Below, piece after piece: positions 8,937-22,334 of a stretch of DNA of 32,668 nucleotides (its first letter is position 1; every line of letters begins with the position of its first letter). The position numbers and the translations under genes were made by a program. A model generated the notes under the pieces. It was not told the origin of the DNA, did no database searches, and was given only the letters and a program-made list of their open reading frames with translations. The stretch is from Acidobacteriota bacterium (GTDB taxonomy: Bacteria > Acidobacteriota > Thermoanaerobaculia > Multivoradales > J023): the NCBI GenBank assembly GCA_029263395.1, contig JAJCXO010000047.1:1-32668 (forward strand). The letters run 5' to 3'.

Positions 8937-9145
8937 TGATTGAATGATGTTTAAGCCGTTCGTACGATGGATGAAAATAGCCTACCATAGACACTAGCTG
9001 AGTCGCTGTCTGACCTTGAGGAGCCGCAGGAGCCATGCTCTGCCCATACGCCGCTTTCAGTCAGTCGAGAGAGCCAGTTCCCAAGCAATGTGGCGGCCTG
9101 CCTCTGACTAGAACTCGAGGTTGTCGTGAGAGGAGGGCGACGTTC

Positions 9146-10702
9146 ATGAGGTTTGAGTTGTTGGGTCGTTTGGCATGCGCAGTCCTGATCTTCGCAACCG
9201 CGGTGCTGGGGTTCACTCCTTCGTCGACGGCCCAGGAAGTTCCGTTTCCTTTCCTGCTGGAAACTGCCATCAGCAACCTCAACCAGCCCACTGTGGTTCG
9301 ATTCGCCGACGATGGTACGGTTTTTGTGGCAGAAAAAGATGGGCTCGTCAAAGTCTTTCAAAATCTCGAGGACACCGAGCCCGAAACGCTCATTGACCTG
9401 ACGACCGAGGTAAATTCTTACCTAGACCGTGGCTTGCTTGGGTTAGCGATTCACCCAGACTTCCCGACGGTGGCTAGTATCTTTGTCCTCTACACCTATG
9501 ATGCACCTCCCGGCGAAATTGCGCCAGTGTGGAATGACATCTGCCCGAATCCCCCGGGAGGATCCATCGATGGCTGCGTGGTCAGCGCTCGGCTATCACG
9601 CATCAACTTGGACACGACAGGCGCCATCGAGCAAGTCTTGATCCAGGAAGGTTGGTGTCAGCAGTTTCCGAGCCACTCCGTCGGCACAATCGCCTTCGGT
9701 CGAGACGGAGCCCTCTACGTTAGCGCGGGCGACGGTGCAAACTTCCGGCTCGGCATTGGCGAATTCGGCGGCGTTGATTTTGGCCAGTTGGGAGGCAGTC
9801 TTCCCGACACGCCAACACCGCAGAACCCATGCGGCGATCCACCGGTTCCGGCCGGCGGAGAACAGCTTCTGCCGCGGGCGGAAGGTGGTGCGCTCCGCAG
9901 CCAAGATCTCCTCACGCCGATGGATCCCGTCAGCTTCGACGGTGCGATTCTGCGGGTCGATCCGAAAACCGGGAAAGCCTTACCGGACAACCCACTGTTC
10001 GGCGGCGCAACCGCCGCTGACGATCGGGTGATCGCCTTTGGCCTCAGGAATCCCTTCCGCTTCACTGTCCATCCACAGACCGACGAGCTCTGGATCGGCG
10101 ACGTCGGCTGGAAGCAATGGGAAGAATTGAACCGAATTATCGATCCGACCGACTCGCTAGTAGAGAACTTTGGTTGGCCTTGTTACGAAGGCAACGCCAA
10201 AAATCCGGACTACGATGCCGTGGATCTGGTCCTCTGCGAAGCCCTTTACGACGTGCCTGGCGCCACCCAGACTCCGTACTTCGCCTATCAGCACGGAGCC
10301 GTCCCAAACCCCGATGGCTGCGGAACCGGTTTCAACGCAGCAATTTCCGGCATAACCTTCTATTCGGGGACAAGCTACCCGCCGCTGTATGCTGGCGCTC
10401 TCCTCTTCGCCGACGTCTCGAATTCGTGCATTTGGGCGATGCTCGCAGACGTCGATGGGCTCCCCGATCCGGCGAGGATCGTGACTCTGGTCGCTGACTC
10501 AGGGCCATCCGTTCACCTAGAGACCGGCCCGCAGGGAGACCTCTTTTATGTCGATATCACGCGCGGAAAAGTCCAACGCCTGAGAGTCGACCCCAGCACT
10601 CTCTTTGGAGACGGATTCGAAAGCGGCGACACGTCGGCTTGGCAACGGCCAGGCCCCTCTTCCATGCCAGGCCGGAAGAGCCCTACCGCCCCAAAAGAGT
10701 GA
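9146..10702 (+). CDS. Secreted quinoprotein glucose/sorbosone dehydrogenase-like beta-propeller (GSDH family)
   Basis: 518 residues with a signal peptide (MRFELLGRLACAVLIF..., cleavage near SSTAQE). The mature part reads as a six-bladed propeller of the soluble quinoprotein sorbosone/glucose dehydrogenase family (PF07995): FLLETAISNLNQPTVVRFADDG, RGLLGLAIHPDF (a diagnostic motif) and RNPFRFTVHPQTDELWIGDVG. It probably oxidises a sugar or polyol in the periplasm with PQQ, but the ligand residues were not mapped. Near the C-terminus is LFGDGFESGDTSAW, shared with two other loci here. Eighteen to twenty extra residues after it are encoded where the gene runs 20 nt into the convergent TRAP gene. 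AGGAGG (9131-9136) lies 9 nt before the ATG at 9146. A longer ORF from 9035 would add 37 residues in front of the signal peptide and is unlikely. Confidence 0.86.
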   Translation: MRFELLGRLACAVLIFATAVLGFTPSSTAQEVPFPFLLETAISNLNQPTVVRFADDGTVFVAEKDGLVKVFQNLEDTEPETLIDLTTEVNSYLDRGLLGLAIHPDFPTVASIFVLYTYDAPPGEIAPVWNDICPNPPGGSIDGCVVSARLSRINLDTTGAIEQVLIQEGWCQQFPSHSVGTIAFGRDGALYVSAGDGANFRLGIGEFGGVDFGQLGGSLPDTPTPQNPCGDPPVPAGGEQLLPRAEGGALRSQDLLTPMDPVSFDGAILRVDPKTGKALPDNPLFGGATAADDRVIAFGLRNPFRFTVHPQTDELWIGDVGWKQWEELNRIIDPTDSLVENFGWPCYEGNAKNPDYDAVDLVLCEALYDVPGATQTPYFAYQHGAVPNPDGCGTGFNAAISGITFYSGTSYPPLYAGALLFADVSNSCIWAMLADVDGLPDPARIVTLVADSGPSVHLETGPQGDLFYVDITRGKVQRLRVDPSTLFGDGFESGDTSAWQRPGPSSMPGRKSPTAPKE

Positions 10703-12497
10703 AGATGCCGGTGGTGAGCCACGGCACGTAGGTGATGAGTAACACCCCGATACCCAGGATGATCAGCATCGGCACCGCCGCCCGATAAACCTCGAGCAAT
10801 GGCCGTTCGAATCGATAGGAGGCGAGGAAAAGATTGAGCCCAACCGGTGGCGTCAAGTACCCGAGTTCTAAATTGGCGACGAAGATGATGCCGAGGTGGA
10901 TCGGATCGATACCGAAGGCAACACCCAGCGGCACGATCAACGGCACCACCACCACAATCGCCGAAAAAATGTCCATCAGACAGCCGACCAACAGCAGGAA
11001 CACATTCAGCGCCAGCAGAAACACCAACGGCGAATGAATGTGGGCCTGGGCCCACACCACCAGCTGATCGGGGACCTGCGCATCCACCAGGTAGTTGGTC
11101 AAACCCATGGCGACACTGAGGATGATCAACACACCACCAACCAGCACCACACATTCCCGCAGCACTCGCGGCAAGTCACCTTTGAGCGTCAGATCACGGT
11201 GGACGAAGCGCTGGACAAACAACGCATAAACCGCCGATAAGGCCGCGGCTTCAACCACTGTCGCAAACCCACCGAGGATCACTACGATCAAGAAAATCGG
11301 CAGCAAGAGCTCCCATTTGGCAACCCATAGAGCTTTCAGGGCGGAGGCCCGGTCGAACGGAGCACGCCCCGCGCCGCTGATCAACCCTTCGCGCATCCCC
11401 CAGGCAGCAATCAACCCCACCAACAACAAACCGGGAATGATGCCGCCGAGAAACAGATCCGGGATCGGTACCGACGCTACGATGCCATAGAGGATCAACG
11501 GCAGGGCTGGCGGCAACAAAAGCCCCAGAGAGCCCGATGCGGTCAACAGGCCAAGCGAAAAACGTTCGCGGTATCGATCGGCTTGTAAAGCCTGAAACAG
11601 CAGACCACCAAGTGCCAAGATCGTGACGCCGGAGCCGCCGGTGAAAATTGTAAAGAACGCACAGACCACCGCGGCCACAATGGCCGTACCGCCTGGAATC
11701 CAACCGAAAAAAGCCCGAAACACTCCGATCAAACGTTCGGAGCTGCGCCCTTCAGCCAGCAAAAAACCGGTCAGCGTAAACAGCGGGATCGCCGGCAGGG
11801 TTGGGGACACCGCCAAGCGGTAGGTCTCTACCGGCACCGCACCGATCGGCACGGCTTCAGCCATGAACAGCAGCGTTGCCGCACCACCCAGGACCGCAAA
11901 AATCGGCGCTCCAAGCAACATCGCCAACAGGATCACCGCCAGGCCAGGCCATACCGACCGAAACTCCAATACCTCTGGGTGGTGCCCCAGCCACAGGCCA
12001 AACGCGATCCCGGTTGCCGCGATACCACGCCCGGGCCAGCCCGGGCTGGCCAGCCACACCAAACGTAACGCGATCAGCCCGAAGGCCAACGGCAGCACCA
12101 GGAGGGTGACCCACACCGGTAAGCCGAGCGCTACTTCGTCGCCGAACTCCTTCTCGGACAGCAGGAACTCGAGCCCTGCTCGTCCCAACAGTGCGGTGAT
12201 CGCCGCCGCCACGGTGGCTGCGAACACCTGTGCGGAATGCCGCCAGCTCCCTTCAGGTAAAAACGTGCCGGTGGCCAAGGCCAGCATCTTGCCTTCGCTG
12301 GCCGCCAAGGCGGCACCCAGAAAGCCCACCCATAGGGTCAAATGCTGAACGATCGGCAGTGCACCCGGCACTGCCGTATCGAAAAACCGCGCCACCATCT
12401 CGGCTGGCAACAGCACCATGATGACCACCAGCGGCAGGCTGGCGACATAGCCCTCGACGCGATCGAACCGTCGGGCACAGGTTTCGAAAAAGCTCAC
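10683..12497 (-). CDS. dctQM: TRAP transporter permease, fused small and large subunits (DctQ-DctM)
   Basis: 604 residues. The first ~160 form a four-helix DctQ-like small permease (VEGYVASLPLVVIMVLLPAE..., TLWVGFLGAALAASEGKML). The rest is a DctM-like large permease of about 12 helices with signature segments IFTGGSGVTILALGGLLF, GLLTASGSLGLLLPPALPLI and NLELGYLTPPVGLNLFLASY. It drives uptake of an organic acid or similar solute with a Na+ or H+ gradient, receiving substrate from the periplasmic DctP. It is the last gene of the tatT-dctP-dctQM set and its 3' end overlaps the convergent secreted dehydrogenase gene by 20 nt. The GTG start has no Shine-Dalgarno sequence, but TACAAT lies 7 nt before it (12505-12510), so an additional internal promoter is possible. 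Confidence 0.93.
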   Translation of the reverse strand: MSFFETCARRFDRVEGYVASLPLVVIMVLLPAEMVARFFDTAVPGALPIVQHLTLWVGFLGAALAASEGKMLALATGTFLPEGSWRHSAQVFAATVAAAITALLGRAGLEFLLSEKEFGDEVALGLPVWVTLLVLPLAFGLIALRLVWLASPGWPGRGIAATGIAFGLWLGHHPEVLEFRSVWPGLAVILLAMLLGAPIFAVLGGAATLLFMAEAVPIGAVPVETYRLAVSPTLPAIPLFTLTGFLLAEGRSSERLIGVFRAFFGWIPGGTAIVAAVVCAFFTIFTGGSGVTILALGGLLFQALQADRYRERFSLGLLTASGSLGLLLPPALPLILYGIVASVPIPDLFLGGIIPGLLLVGLIAAWGMREGLISGAGRAPFDRASALKALWVAKWELLLPIFLIVVILGGFATVVEAAALSAVYALFVQRFVHRDLTLKGDLPRVLRECVVLVGGVLIILSVAMGLTNYLVDAQVPDQLVVWAQAHIHSPLVFLLALNVFLLLVGCLMDIFSAIVVVVPLIVPLGVAFGIDPIHLGIIFVANLELGYLTPPVGLNLFLASYRFERPLLEVYRAAVPMLIILGIGVLLITYVPWLTTGIFTLLGR

Positions 12498-14960: not shown

Positions 14961-16628
14961 TTACGGAACCGTATTGGCCCACTCGTCGGTTGTACCGCTC
15001 TCGAAGCCATTGAAGAACAGACCGTCGATGGTGAACGAACCGATGTGAGTTGTCCACAAACCACCATCATCCACCAACTCGTTGGTGTACCAGAAAGTGC
15101 GATCGTCGGTCGGATCGACGTTCATCGAGCTGTAGTCTCCCCAGCGCTGACTACCGGTCTGGACGCCAATACCATCAACGATGGTCAGCTCCTCCATCGT
15201 CATGAGGCCAAGTGCTTCGCCGTTGCGCCGTGCGGTCGCCCGCATGCCAGGCAAAACGCTGGTGTCGTCACTGACGGTGTAGCCCAAAGCGATGTGCCCC
15301 GCACCGTTCATCGCGATCGAACCCATGAAACGGTACACGGAATCCGGTGAGTAGGTGCCTTCCTGGTAAATGCTCCAAGGACCAACGCCACTCTTACGGA
15401 GTTCGTACCACCGGGTGCCGGCGACTCCGCCGCCAACGTCCACAACCTGGTTCACCACCATCGTCTCGTAGCTACCGAAGTTGCGATATTGCAGGCGACG
15501 TAAGGCACGATTGAACAGCGCGTCGATCATGTTGGCGGTCCCGGGCTGCGGTACGCAATCGCGGACTCCAGGGCTACACGGCAACAGCGTAAACGCTGAA
15601 GGAATCAAAGGCGCCACTTCGGTGAAGCTCGAATTGGCCGGGGTTCCGAAGTCGACGTCGAACTCCCAGATCTCGATCCGGTCGGTCGGATCCGAATTAT
15701 CTTGGGTGGCGTCGACCGTCCGTGCAAAATAGTTGGGGGCACCGACCGGTGGCGGAGGCCCGTCATTGTCTGCCGGCAAAATACGCGTCACACGCGGCGA
15801 CGTGCCGTCGAGTCGAGGGATCGTGAACCGCTGAAACGTTGCGGGAGCACCCGCCAACATATTGACCCGATCGAAGGCGTAAATGCCGAGAAAGGGGCTC
15901 TCGAACGTCCCGACGTAATAGGCATCCGGCCAGACACCATATTGTGGGTAGTCAGGGAAACTCGGGGCCGAAAAATCGTAGACGAACCAGCCATCGGTGA
16001 CCGGATCAGGGCCTTGCGAGATGTAAAAGCAGAACGTGTTGCCGGTGAGATCGAACTCGGACAACATCCAACGGTCTGCCAATTGATCGTATTGCACGAT
16101 CGGGTCGCCGTCGCCATCTGCACACGGCGAACCAGGAGCGCCGGTCCACAGCGAATTGAGGGCCGTGGCGGCAACCAAGACCCCACCCGTCTTGTCCCAG
16201 ATCTGGAACCGAGAGGCGTTGACCATCTGGATGTAGTGATCCGGCCCCACCGCGCCGACGATGTCAGGAGGTGTACCCCCGCCGAAGGAGATGCCGCCGA
16301 AGTTGACTCCGAGCGGGGTCGAAAAACTTGTTGAGCTCGCTCCCCGTTGCCGGATCGGGTCCACCCAATCAGGATCACGCTCGACGGCATAATCGGCCGC
16401 CAGGCCCTCGTCCACCACCGTGATTGGATCACCGGGCTTCCATGCTGGCGCTGGTGGCAAGTCTCGCAAGTCAACGTCGAGCACATAAGGCGTCACCGAC
16501 GAGCTGACATACACATCGGACGCACCATCGCCTGCCCAAACCGGGGCCACGAGCCCCAAAGAGCATACAGCCACTGTGCTGAACGCAAGACAAGAACGCA
16601 CCAGGTGCCTGGAAGTCTGGATCGTCAT
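14961..16628 (-). CDS. Secreted protein of unknown function with C-terminal FESG motif
   Basis: 555 residues with a signal peptide (SCLAFSTVAVCSLGLVAPVWAGD, cleavage near residue 32). The mature sequence is rich in aromatic beta-strand motifs of propeller type: GAVGPDHYIQMVNASRFQIW, DPIVQYDQLADRWMLSEFDL, YPQYGVWPDAYYVGTF, GSIAMNGAGHIALGYTVS and DYSSMNVDPTDDRTFWYT. These repeated blades with D-R-W and Y-Y-V patterns resemble large uncharacterised exported proteins. No catalytic motif is recognised. The extreme C-terminus LFFNGFESGTTDEW matches the motif at the end of the dehydrogenase-like protein and the beta-helix remnant in this window. A Shine-Dalgarno sequence (GACGGAG) precedes the ATG. 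It is transcribed alone, downstream of the ADOP permease. Confidence 0.85.
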   Translation of the reverse strand: MTIQTSRHLVRSCLAFSTVAVCSLGLVAPVWAGDGASDVYVSSSVTPYVLDVDLRDLPPAPAWKPGDPITVVDEGLAADYAVERDPDWVDPIRQRGASSTSFSTPLGVNFGGISFGGGTPPDIVGAVGPDHYIQMVNASRFQIWDKTGGVLVAATALNSLWTGAPGSPCADGDGDPIVQYDQLADRWMLSEFDLTGNTFCFYISQGPDPVTDGWFVYDFSAPSFPDYPQYGVWPDAYYVGTFESPFLGIYAFDRVNMLAGAPATFQRFTIPRLDGTSPRVTRILPADNDGPPPPVGAPNYFARTVDATQDNSDPTDRIEIWEFDVDFGTPANSSFTEVAPLIPSAFTLLPCSPGVRDCVPQPGTANMIDALFNRALRRLQYRNFGSYETMVVNQVVDVGGGVAGTRWYELRKSGVGPWSIYQEGTYSPDSVYRFMGSIAMNGAGHIALGYTVSDDTSVLPGMRATARRNGEALGLMTMEELTIVDGIGVQTGSQRWGDYSSMNVDPTDDRTFWYTNELVDDGGLWTTHIGSFTIDGLFFNGFESGTTDEWANTVP

Positions 16629-20865: not shown

Positions 20866-21102
20866 CTAACCGCTCGACCAGCCGGAGGTATCCCCCGACT
20901 CGAAGCTGTCTGCAAACAACTCCGTGGCTCCCGACTCGTCCACCCCAATGTCGACCGCCACCCCCAGTTGACGCGCACCGCCGTCGAGATCGGTCTCCCC
21001 GACCGGCACAAACGCGGGATTGCCACGGTCGACCGCCGGTGAGGCTGGGTCGATCAAACCGATCGCCGCGGTCAAGATGCCGCACATGTGGTGTCGACTC
21101 AT
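20866..21102 (-). pseudogene. Remnant of a beta-helix (choice-of-anchor-Q-like) surface protein, FESG C-terminus
   Basis: A 78-codon frame whose middle, DPASPAVDRGNPAFVPVGET followed by DLDGGARQLGVAVDIGVDES, is the typical last turn of secreted parallel-beta-helix proteins (SPAIDAGD...ETDIDGxPR...VDIGADE). It ends with LFADSFESGDTSGW. The hundreds of residues and the signal peptide expected upstream are missing, so it looks like a 3' fragment. Yet its ATG overlaps the stop of the CoA-transferase gene (ATGA) and has AAGGAGAGG 4 nt before it, so the fragment may be translated by coupling. Without a signal peptide the product would stay in the cytoplasm. It could be either a fortuitous start on a gene relic or a short fused gene; I favour the relic. 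Confidence 0.6.
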
Positions 21103-22334
21103 GAGTCCTCTCCTTCGGCTGAGTTTTTACCGAGACCCCGAGGTGCTGCTTTGCCAGCCAAGGCGAGGGCCCATCGCTTAAAACTAAAGCGCCGTCCGAT
21201 ACCGCCAGCGCGCCGCTTTCGCGACGACAGCGCCGAGGCCAGGCCAAACTCGCGGGATACGCCATCGGTGTGCTCCCCCAGCCCAGGGTAGGCCGCATCT
21301 TCTCGCGGTCGCTCACCGTCAAAACGCGCTGGAAATCCCAGTCGCGGCAACCCGTCGTCACCATCGCGCAGCAAATCGCGAACCTTGACTTGCGGATGCT
21401 CCCGAGCTTCAGCCGAACTGAGCACCGGATCGACCGGGATATCGTGTTCAGCAAACAACGTGGCCCATGCTTCGCGGGTGCGCCCAGCCACCAACTCAGC
21501 CACCTCGCGATGCACCGAACCATCCGTCTGATATTGACGCAACAGCCAGTCTCGCCGATCGACCGCGGCACAGAATTTCTTCCAAAAGCGGGGCTCGAGA
21601 GCCGCCAGCGCCAGCCGGCCCCCATCTTTGGTCGGATAGAGGTTGTAACACGGCACTGAGCCGGTGAGCAGCAGCGGCTCACGATCCGCCCGTGGACTCT
21701 CGGTCTCCGAGGCCCACGCCATGATCGAAGCGTGGCCCGCAGCATCGAGCAGCGCCTGATCGATCCAACAGCCCTGACCGTCGCGCTGCCGACGATGTAA
21801 CGCCGCCAGCACCGAGCAGGTGGCGCTCCAGGCGCCGACGATGTCCGCCGTCTGTGCTGCTGGCATGCCGCGAGCCCCGGCCAAGCTGCCGGCGATCGCC
21901 TGATAGGTCAGATCGTGGCCAGCTCGCTGGGCGTCGGGCCCCTCCTGCCCCCATCCACTGACCGAGCAGATGATCAACTTGGGGTAACGGCGACGCAACT
22001 CGGCGGGTGGCAACCCGAGACGCTCCAAGGTGCCAGGCCTGAAACTTTCGACCAGCACGTCGGCAGTGATCAGCATCTCTTCGAGACACTCCCGGGCCGC
22101 GTCTTTCTTGAGGTTGAGCGCGATACTCTGGTGCCCGGCGAGCAACAGCGCCGACAGGCTCGACTTACCGTCTTTGGCCCCTGGCAAATGCCGCGATGGA
22201 TCGCCGAGGGTCGGCTCTTCCACCTTGAGCACCCGGGCCCCGAGATCTCCCAACAGTCGCGAAACCAACGGGCCGGGCAAGTTTCGGCTGAGATCGACGA
22301 CCAACAGATCGTCGAGCAAGCTCGGTCCGCTCAT
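21099..22334 (-). CDS. Class III CoA-transferase (CaiB/BaiF family; alpha-methylacyl-CoA racemase-like)
   Basis: 411 residues. The N-terminus LLVVDLSRNLPGPLVSRLLGDLGARVLKVE, the AGHQSIALNLKK strand, ADVLVESFRPGTLERLGL and the catalytic loop AGHDLTYQAIAG with nucleophile Asp141 are diagnostic for the CaiB-BaiF family. The enzyme would move CoA between carboxylates or epimerise a 2-methylacyl-CoA; similarity to racemases in ARDxLGxDQGD-like regions is limited, so the exact reaction is open. A basic C-terminal tail of ~45 residues (SSRKRRAGGIGRRFSFKRW) extends beyond the usual family end. It lies 73 nt downstream of the thiolase gene, probably co-transcribed, suggesting a role in fatty or branched-chain acyl-CoA metabolism. 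The ATG lacks a clear Shine-Dalgarno sequence. Confidence 0.91.
   Translation of the reverse strand: MSGPSLLDDLLVVDLSRNLPGPLVSRLLGDLGARVLKVEEPTLGDPSRHLPGAKDGKSSLSALLLAGHQSIALNLKKDAARECLEEMLITADVLVESFRPGTLERLGLPPAELRRRYPKLIICSVSGWGQEGPDAQRAGHDLTYQAIAGSLAGARGMPAAQTADIVGAWSATCSVLAALHRRQRDGQGCWIDQALLDAAGHASIMAWASETESPRADREPLLLTGSVPCYNLYPTKDGGRLALAALEPRFWKKFCAAVDRRDWLLRQYQTDGSVHREVAELVAGRTREAWATLFAEHDIPVDPVLSSAEAREHPQVKVRDLLRDGDDGLPRLGFPARFDGERPREDAAYPGLGEHTDGVSREFGLASALSSRKRRAGGIGRRFSFKRWALALAGKAAPRGLGKNSAEGEDS

Follow-up and report, generated by a model that had tools for sequence, protein, structure and literature searches.

A short FESG tag on about a hundred exported proteins of an Acidobacteriota bacterium looks like a new address label

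Three tagged genes on one contig

As listed in Table 1, three genes in the window (the whole stretch analysed, which is the entire contig C47 of 32,668 nucleotides) encode proteins that share a short sequence, called here the FESG tag. The contig belongs to a genome (G000) of 10.68 Mb in 291 contigs. The 14-residue consensus of the tag is IFADGFESGDTSAW, and about a hundred exported proteins of this bacterium carry it. The three copies lie in frame where the initial annotation had placed them, as judged from the ORF list, the sequence and a profile search. That annotation had counted three copies, all of which were recovered in the window, but the genome holds about 100. The core of copy 2, LFFNGFESGTTDEW, is in frame with a stop codon at 14961-14963, and that of copy 3, LFADSFESGDTSGW, is in frame with a stop codon at 20866-20868.

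Table 1. Tag copies and tagged genes in the window
Feature	Position	Strand	Evidence or remark
Exported GSDH-type (glucose/sorbosone dehydrogenase) protein with tag	9035..10702	+	Pfam PF07995, E 1.4e-28
FESG tag copy 1, LFGDGFESGDTSAW	10601-10642	+	In frame; profile match 10601-10657, E 2.8e-11
19-residue extension past tag copy 1	10643..10699	+	ORF list, sequence
Exported protein ending in tag copy 2	14961..16628	-	Signal-peptide-like start
FESG tag copy 2, LFFNGFESGTTDEWANTVP	14964-15020	-	Profile match, E 3.8e-10
86-residue gene remnant with choice-of-anchor Q segment and tag copy 3	20866..21126	-	NF041518, E 6.6e-06
FESG tag copy 3, LFADSFESGDTSGWSSG	20869-20919	-	Profile match, E 3.2e-07

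The GSDH protein likely starts at about position 9146 and has a signal-peptide-like N-terminus, MRFELLGRLACAVLIFATAVLG. The 3′ end of its ORF overlaps that of a convergent TRAP permease ORF (10683-12497) by 20 bases (10683-10702). It had been proposed that about 19 residues after copy 1 are encoded in this overlap and that the copy was once terminal. The length of 19 residues is correct, but the overlap with the TRAP ORF covers no more than the final 20 bases of the GSDH ORF, and thus the extension begins 40 bases ahead of it. The proposal of a formerly terminal copy is plausible: the homologues L214, L216 and L218, which were found without the tag as bait, end 0-6 residues past the tryptophan of the tag, but L215 and L217 carry 11-12 extra residues. 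When the GSDH protein was used as a query against 59 genomes of the order, all five non-self matches at E ≤ 1e-20 were found to end in the tag (two in G330 and one each in G300, G332 and G297). In five full-length GSDH rows, 9 of the 14 tag columns are invariant vs 51 of 353 columns elsewhere (p 4.9e-5), a comparison biased in favour of tag conservation by two rows (L151 and L160) retrieved with the tag pattern. An AlphaFold model of the GSDH protein (7 rows) has a mean pLDDT of 50.4, with an average of about 80 for residues 461-480 and values below 50 for the tag region (residues 486-518). The model weakly suggests that the tag is a free tail behind better-scored strands.

The second tagged protein had been described as one of no known family, and it indeed has no match in Pfam (E ≤ 1) or NCBIfam (E ≤ 0.1). 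The third, with its 86 residues, is a remnant as described. Choice-of-anchor Q is its only NCBIfam match at E ≤ 0.1, which would fit the earlier label of a beta-helix remnant.

Anatomy, number and cargo of the tag

The core of the tag is [IL]-F-x-D-[GS]-F-E-[ST]-G-[DN]-[TL]-[ST]-x-W, often followed by S-x-T-V-P. A profile of 19 columns (A1) was built from ten copies and searched genome-wide, as the initial annotation had proposed. The G000 genome has at least 97 matches at E ≤ 0.001 (among the best 126 of 187 candidates) and at least 134 at E ≤ 10 (among the best 150 of 383 candidates). Chance or low complexity was rejected as the origin, because the motif regex matched once in 200 codon-shuffled windows vs three real copies, and because of the 97 genome-wide profile matches. 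Stretches were fetched around the E ≤ 10 matches listed, minus six weak rows (on C77, C78, C125, C214, C272 and C274), and were screened with a strict regex in which F2, F6, G9 and W14 are fixed and the choice of residue is restricted at positions 1, 7 and 8. A copy was called C-terminal when no more than 35 residues follow the tryptophan. By these rules, the stretches and the window contain 115 copies, of which 106 are C-terminal and nine are internal or otherwise placed; degenerate copies, such as IFDDEFEPGD, were seen outside this count. The C-terminal copies comprise 91 full-length ORFs, 12 short remnants and three that run off the stretch.

Position 7 is glutamate in 106 of 106 C-terminal copies, although the regex permitted aspartate. 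Aspartate occupies position 4 in 103 of 106, while position 5 is glycine in 77 and serine in 21. The tryptophan is followed by 0-7 residues in 96 of the 106 copies, most commonly by five (25 copies), and by 9-34 residues in the other 10. In 20 stretches around top-scoring matches from three other genomes (G316, G330 and G345), there are 22 C-terminal copies vs one internal copy, and exactly five residues, typically S-x-T-V-P, follow the tryptophan in 21 of the 22. Judging from these sequences, the 19-residue form may be the fuller tag, and the tryptophan, which was imposed by the regex, may mark the limit of what always stays.

It had been claimed that the tag has neither the hydrophobic helix nor the basic tail of LPXTG or PEP-CTERM signals, and this holds for the 91 tagged proteins. 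The last 40 residues reach a mean hydropathy of 1.6 over 15 residues in only four of them (median maximum, 0.74). Lysine and arginine are absent past the tryptophan in 72 proteins, and two or more are present in five. Cysteine occurs in the tag or tail of one protein in 91. The composition is acidic and rich in serine and threonine, with a mean net charge of about -2.9 for tag plus tail.

The tag is concentrated at C-termini, but the earlier statement that it is confined to those of secreted proteins is too strong: of the 115 copies, nine lie within the protein, and two of these immediately follow a predicted signal peptide. In L059 and L111, the tag lies within a few residues of the predicted leader, and no domain was recognised in either protein (Pfam and NCBIfam, both at E ≤ 0.1). 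In L041 of G000 and L010 of G015, which represent two families of the order, the tag lies inside the chain within similar sequence. Further sequence follows the tag in L026, L058, L083, L106, L116 and L125. From these few non-terminal copies, it may be that a linear motif on the surface is recognised and that the signal need not be terminal. Placement of the L041 tag in a PKD loop was rejected, since the Pfam PKD match lies about 175 residues further on. About 12 internal copies that had been regarded as jelly-roll-like were also dismissed, having no Pfam backing.

Export was assessed with a home-made signal-peptide heuristic. Signal-peptide-like starts were found in 83 of 91 tagged ORFs vs 86 of 216 other ORFs of the same stretches (Fisher p 2.6e-18); the heuristic is thus positive in 40% of the controls, which were chosen by length alone and may include some shadow ORFs. 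Among the eight tagged ORFs that were missed, a leader is visible by eye in L054, L072 and L121, and L115 has a twin-arginine-like leader. In a second set (G316, G330 and G345), the heuristic is positive for 19 of 20 tagged vs 4 of 32 control ORFs, and it is positive in 78 of 86 additional tagged loci, a set with no control group. Three of ten flagged tagged proteins appear lipoprotein-like by eye. By this heuristic and the counts above, the tag is not found equally often inside proteins or on proteins without signal peptides.

After removal of the tag and leader, the 91 full-length tagged ORFs fall into 50 clusters (E < 1e-5), bearing out the claim that the tag sits on otherwise unrelated proteins. 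Thus, the tag is a discrete module on about 100 G000 proteins of many families, mostly with signal-peptide-like starts. For family searches, 85 of the 91 ORFs were used (alignment A2; five were left out for length, as was the second ORF of L098). Pfam matches spread over 96 families, including FG-GAP_3 (6), beta-helix (6), subtilases (5), GSDH (5), reprolysin-type proteases (4), BNR_2 (4) and M14 (2). The best 25 of 144 NCBIfam families at E ≤ 1, many of which bear no anchor-related name, include choice-of-anchor Q (4), choice-of-anchor D (4) and families whose names refer to other C-terminal anchors, which are compared with known systems below. Since such families are named for other anchors, the tag probably occupies the known-anchor site in several of them. 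With its subtilases, its M36, M14 and reprolysin-type proteases, GSDH, and its FG-GAP and BNR proteins, the cargo points to display at the surface or outside the cell.

Conservation of the peptide and distribution among relatives

Is the tag conserved as a peptide or copied as DNA? The 106 C-terminal G000 copies all differ in DNA, with a mean DNA identity of 0.677 and a mean peptide identity of 0.699. Serine 8 is encoded by TCN in 59 copies and by AGY in 25. Random choice of synonymous codons predicts a DNA identity of 0.645 ± 0.003 vs the 0.677 observed, and synonymous sites are therefore near, but not at, saturation. The upstream flanks have an identity of 0.29 in G000, and the flanks of the G316 tags are also unrelated (identity 0.36/0.32). 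A mobile DNA element that spreads the tag is not supported, because the flanks are unrelated and the tag DNA of G000 comes close to what synonymous codon choice alone predicts. One 15-residue peptide is present in G316 in 12 copies, which have a DNA identity of 0.893 vs 0.823 ± 0.011 expected from the codon usage of tagged ORFs; the expectation was 0.780 when all longest ORFs, possibly with shadow ORFs, were used. The residual DNA similarity in G316 likely reflects some younger copying. In summary, it is the peptide that is conserved and, for the most part, not the DNA.

In a sample of the phylum, the tag was found in at least 13 of 297 genomes at E ≤ 0.01. The class has it in at least 61 of 148 genomes at E ≤ 1e-4, and the class search revealed a second tag-rich family (f8) outside the order. 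Within the order, at least 46 of 72 genomes have it at E ≤ 0.001, with 2 to 122 copies among the matches listed. The tag-free genomes of the order, again among the matches listed, are the 21 of genus g4 together with G246, G310, G321 (a genome 74% complete), G351 and G352. In genus g2, G297 has 118 tags vs none in G246 (E ≤ 0.001, among the matches listed). Thus, the tag is present or absent genome-wide and is lacking altogether in some close relatives. The pair G246 and G297 is the best one for tracing a partner gene. Across 84,980 species genomes, an exact pattern of the tag with an immediate stop, which is strict enough for looser tags in other phyla to escape it, was found in 77 stretches of 16 assemblies. 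By title, six of these are Thermoanaerobaculia or Thermoanaerobaculales, five are Acidobacteria or Acidobacteriota, three are Holophagae and two are 'uncultured bacterium'.

The presence and absence of the tag can be followed within single cargo families. A repeat-protein family (A3) was searched in 16 genomes, of which eight g4 genomes have no homologue. With same-gene loci counted once, and L256, L264, L272 and the open L254 (G310) dropped, the tag is present in nine of ten resolved closed homologues from the tag-rich G297, G316 and G345 vs none of nine resolved homologues from the tag-free G246, G351 and G352. Among the A3 homologues, L251 has a slightly altered tag, L262 and L267 continue for about 20-45 residues past the tag, and L268 (G345) is untagged. 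Five of the nine homologues from tag-free genomes stop right past the last repeat (for example with GRRFTP or RREIDPP), and four carry another C-terminal domain. Four loci of tag-free genomes (L253, L258, L269 and L271) and L268 share the end TGDTGAFWFFxPxNVELVVKVLDGxxxNGHFWVF. This end is possibly an alternative C-terminal module on homologues of tagged repeat proteins.

The M36 proteases are tagged in G331, G301, G316, G000, G317 and G332, while those of G307, G309, G305 and G308 have an altered tag in which F-G-x-G replaces F-E-S-G, and that of G304 has a looser form. The F-G-x-G form was seen in the M36 proteases L220, L223, L224 and L234 of family f81. Since M36 proteases are untagged in G329, G330, G328, G299 and G298, as well as in the tag-free G310, tag-rich genomes also hold untagged members. 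These assignments leave out loci matched only in part (L236-L248), among which L243 (G297) ends in a looser tag. The curated cut-off of the myxosortase-dependent M36 family is not attained anywhere in the order.

Candidate partners, rival readings and known systems

The initial annotation had envisaged a conserved processing gene that co-occurs with the tag. Among the 40 largest clusters of neighbouring genes (908 ORFs, 175 of them tagged), no recurrent dedicated neighbour was found by eye; kinase-like proteins, ABC-ATPase-like proteins (by eye) and the cargo families recur near tagged genes. Exosortase (PF09721, E ≤ 1e-5) was found in 12 of 14 tag-rich vs two of eight tag-free genomes. It was not accepted as the partner, being absent in the tag-rich G316 and G317 and present in the tag-free G246 and G352. 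The exosortase-like matches, one at G000:C25:68327-68731 and others in 13 of the 21 other genomes searched, mostly cover the C-terminal half of PF09721 in open frames of 189-344 residues, and one in G299 covers nearly the whole family. SprA (TIGR04189) matches in none of 22 genomes, and 14 control genomes are equally silent.

Of the 46 tag-bearing genomes, 42 have a strong secretin match (TIGR02517, E ≤ 1e-50), as do 4 of the 26 tag-free ones, but none of the 21 in genus g4. Most of this contrast comes from g4 and may therefore reflect a single loss that happened to coincide. In 68 of the 72 genomes of the order, including all 21 of g4, a second, weaker secretin match is present, so that g4 (for example at L284) has the weaker kind only. 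The identity of the secretins was checked in three genomes. In G000, the strong one is PilQ and adjoins PilM and PilO; in G316, its C301 copy is linked to PilM. The weaker one was examined in G089 (g4), where it is GspD-like, has a GspF-like gene next to it and scores below curated cut-offs. By score, the strong match of G326 looks GspD-like. Since the strong match also occurs in the tag-free G246, G310, G351 and G352, secretins discriminate imperfectly. Among exosortase, SprA and the secretins, none was accepted as the partner, which would be an envelope component.

I consider it probable, on the sequence data, that the tag has a sorting or attachment role in a broad sense and is read by an envelope partner. 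Exported cargo with the tag would be destined for one shared place, either in the outer envelope or beyond it. It would cross the inner membrane by Sec (one protein, L115, has a leader that looks Tat-like by eye), after which a single dedicated receptor, or a single transport or attachment machine, would bind its acidic-aromatic tail, either in the periplasm or at the outer face. Binding may require the F..F-E-S-G....W residues, and not a membrane helix, a cysteine or the exact C-terminal carboxylate. The partner would secrete, retain or attach the cargo, and once a lineage loses the machine, its tags would disappear.

Could the tag instead be a relic of a fold? It resembles the N-terminal F-E-x-G-x-x-x-x-W strand of CBM, MAM and cleaved-adhesin folds, and it might be the first beta-strand of a jelly-roll, kept as a leftover or structural cap with no sorting function. 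The tags just behind the predicted signal peptide in L059 and L111, and those that precede further sequence in L106 and L116, would agree with this. However, no jelly-roll Pfam model matched at E ≤ 1 behind these four tags or in three tag tails, and a search of PDB sequences with the profile gave nothing at E ≤ 10. That 106 copies still share about 70% peptide identity when their synonymous sites are nearly saturated is unexpected for a relic, as is the genome-wide disappearance of the tag in relatives, and I regard a relic as unlikely. A signal for type II or type IV pilus-like outer-membrane machinery is improbable to the same degree. The cargo is of types that are usually secreted, and the strong secretin, with its PilQ identity in G000 and PilM link in G316, is biased towards tag-bearing genomes; this bias is offset by the four tag-free genomes that have it, by the breadth of the weaker secretin, by the possible single event behind the g4 absence and by the GspD-like match of G326. 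Type II secretion is not known to use a linear signal.

Still less likely is a binding or quality-control peptide that is not an address label at all, such as a protease recognition site, a calcium- or glycan-binding site or an O-glycosylation site. The acidic, serine- and threonine-rich composition and the copies within the chain in L041 and L010 would suit it, but the strong C-terminal bias and the all-or-none distribution among genomes fit a dedicated partner better. There is also a more specific and rather speculative form of the sorting reading, to which I give little weight: the tag would be a donated beta-strand, the lone first strand of a jelly-roll, slotting into a surface receptor that lacks its own first strand, and about 100 exported proteins in each genome would in this way be plugged non-covalently into the outer envelope. 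Such a strand would work from the C-terminus, a mature N-terminus or an internal loop, and this position independence is unlike the sortase-type signals compared here. Its receptor would be present in tag-rich genomes and absent from their tag-free relatives.

Returning to the preferred reading of a sorting or attachment tag, how does it compare with known systems? The C-terminal domain of the type IX secretion system (T9SS) is a sorting region of secreted proteins that has no membrane helix, but it is a folded domain of about 70-80 residues, while the FESG tag is short. The likeness lies in the helix-free C-terminal region, and three of the 85 tagged proteins match a T9SS-dependent M6-like family (M6i). 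PEP-CTERM, with exosortase, is also a genome-wide C-terminal tag family of patchy distribution (described in PMC3237569). Unlike PEP-CTERM, the FESG tag has no helix or basic tail, and exosortase fails to track it. GlyGly-CTERM is described in the same paper as a motif followed by a transmembrane helix and a basic cluster, with up to thirteen members per genome (PMC3237569). It resembles the FESG tag as a short C-terminal region on unrelated signal-peptide proteins, with many cargoes for one handling enzyme, rhombosortase, and four of the 85 tagged proteins match the rhombosortase-dependent M36 family. It differs in its helix and basic cluster, and the FESG tag has about 100 copies in G000. 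MYXO-CTERM, according to PMC11980579, has an invariant cysteine, a helix and an arginine-rich end, and is carried at the C-terminus by dozens of exported proteins in a genome. Four of the 85 proteins match the myxosortase-dependent M36 family, but the invariant cysteine has its counterpart in only one of 91 FESG tags plus tails. Of the tripartite features of LPXTG, PEP-CTERM and GlyGly-CTERM proteins, the signal peptide is present (83 of 91, by the heuristic), while a transmembrane segment is rare (4 of 91). Since the features that define LPXTG, PEP-CTERM, GlyGly-CTERM and MYXO-CTERM, as given in these papers, are lacking as a rule, the FESG tag is a member of none of them.

Databases and literature gave no match for the tag itself. 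No family of NCBIfam release 20.0 was found at E ≤ 10 for the last 60 residues of ten tagged proteins (HMMER filters may drop weak matches), Pfam has no match at E ≤ 1 for three tag tails, and the profile matched nothing in PDB at E ≤ 10. A description of the tag was not found in the literature on the motif, on sorting signals and on secretion in Thermoanaerobaculia, in a search that covered few subscription journals. The tag thus looks like a new address label for secreted or surface proteins and a kind of C-terminal sorting signal. Because the pattern is all-or-none between close relatives, a search for the partner gene is directly feasible. If the reading is true, a group of mostly uncultured environmental bacteria would address up to about 120 proteins per genome by means of a short soluble tag that has neither a helix nor a cysteine nor a basic tail. 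Such a system would differ from the signals of sortase, exosortase, rhombosortase, myxosortase and T9SS. The probable surface and secreted proteome of such genomes could then be listed from sequence.
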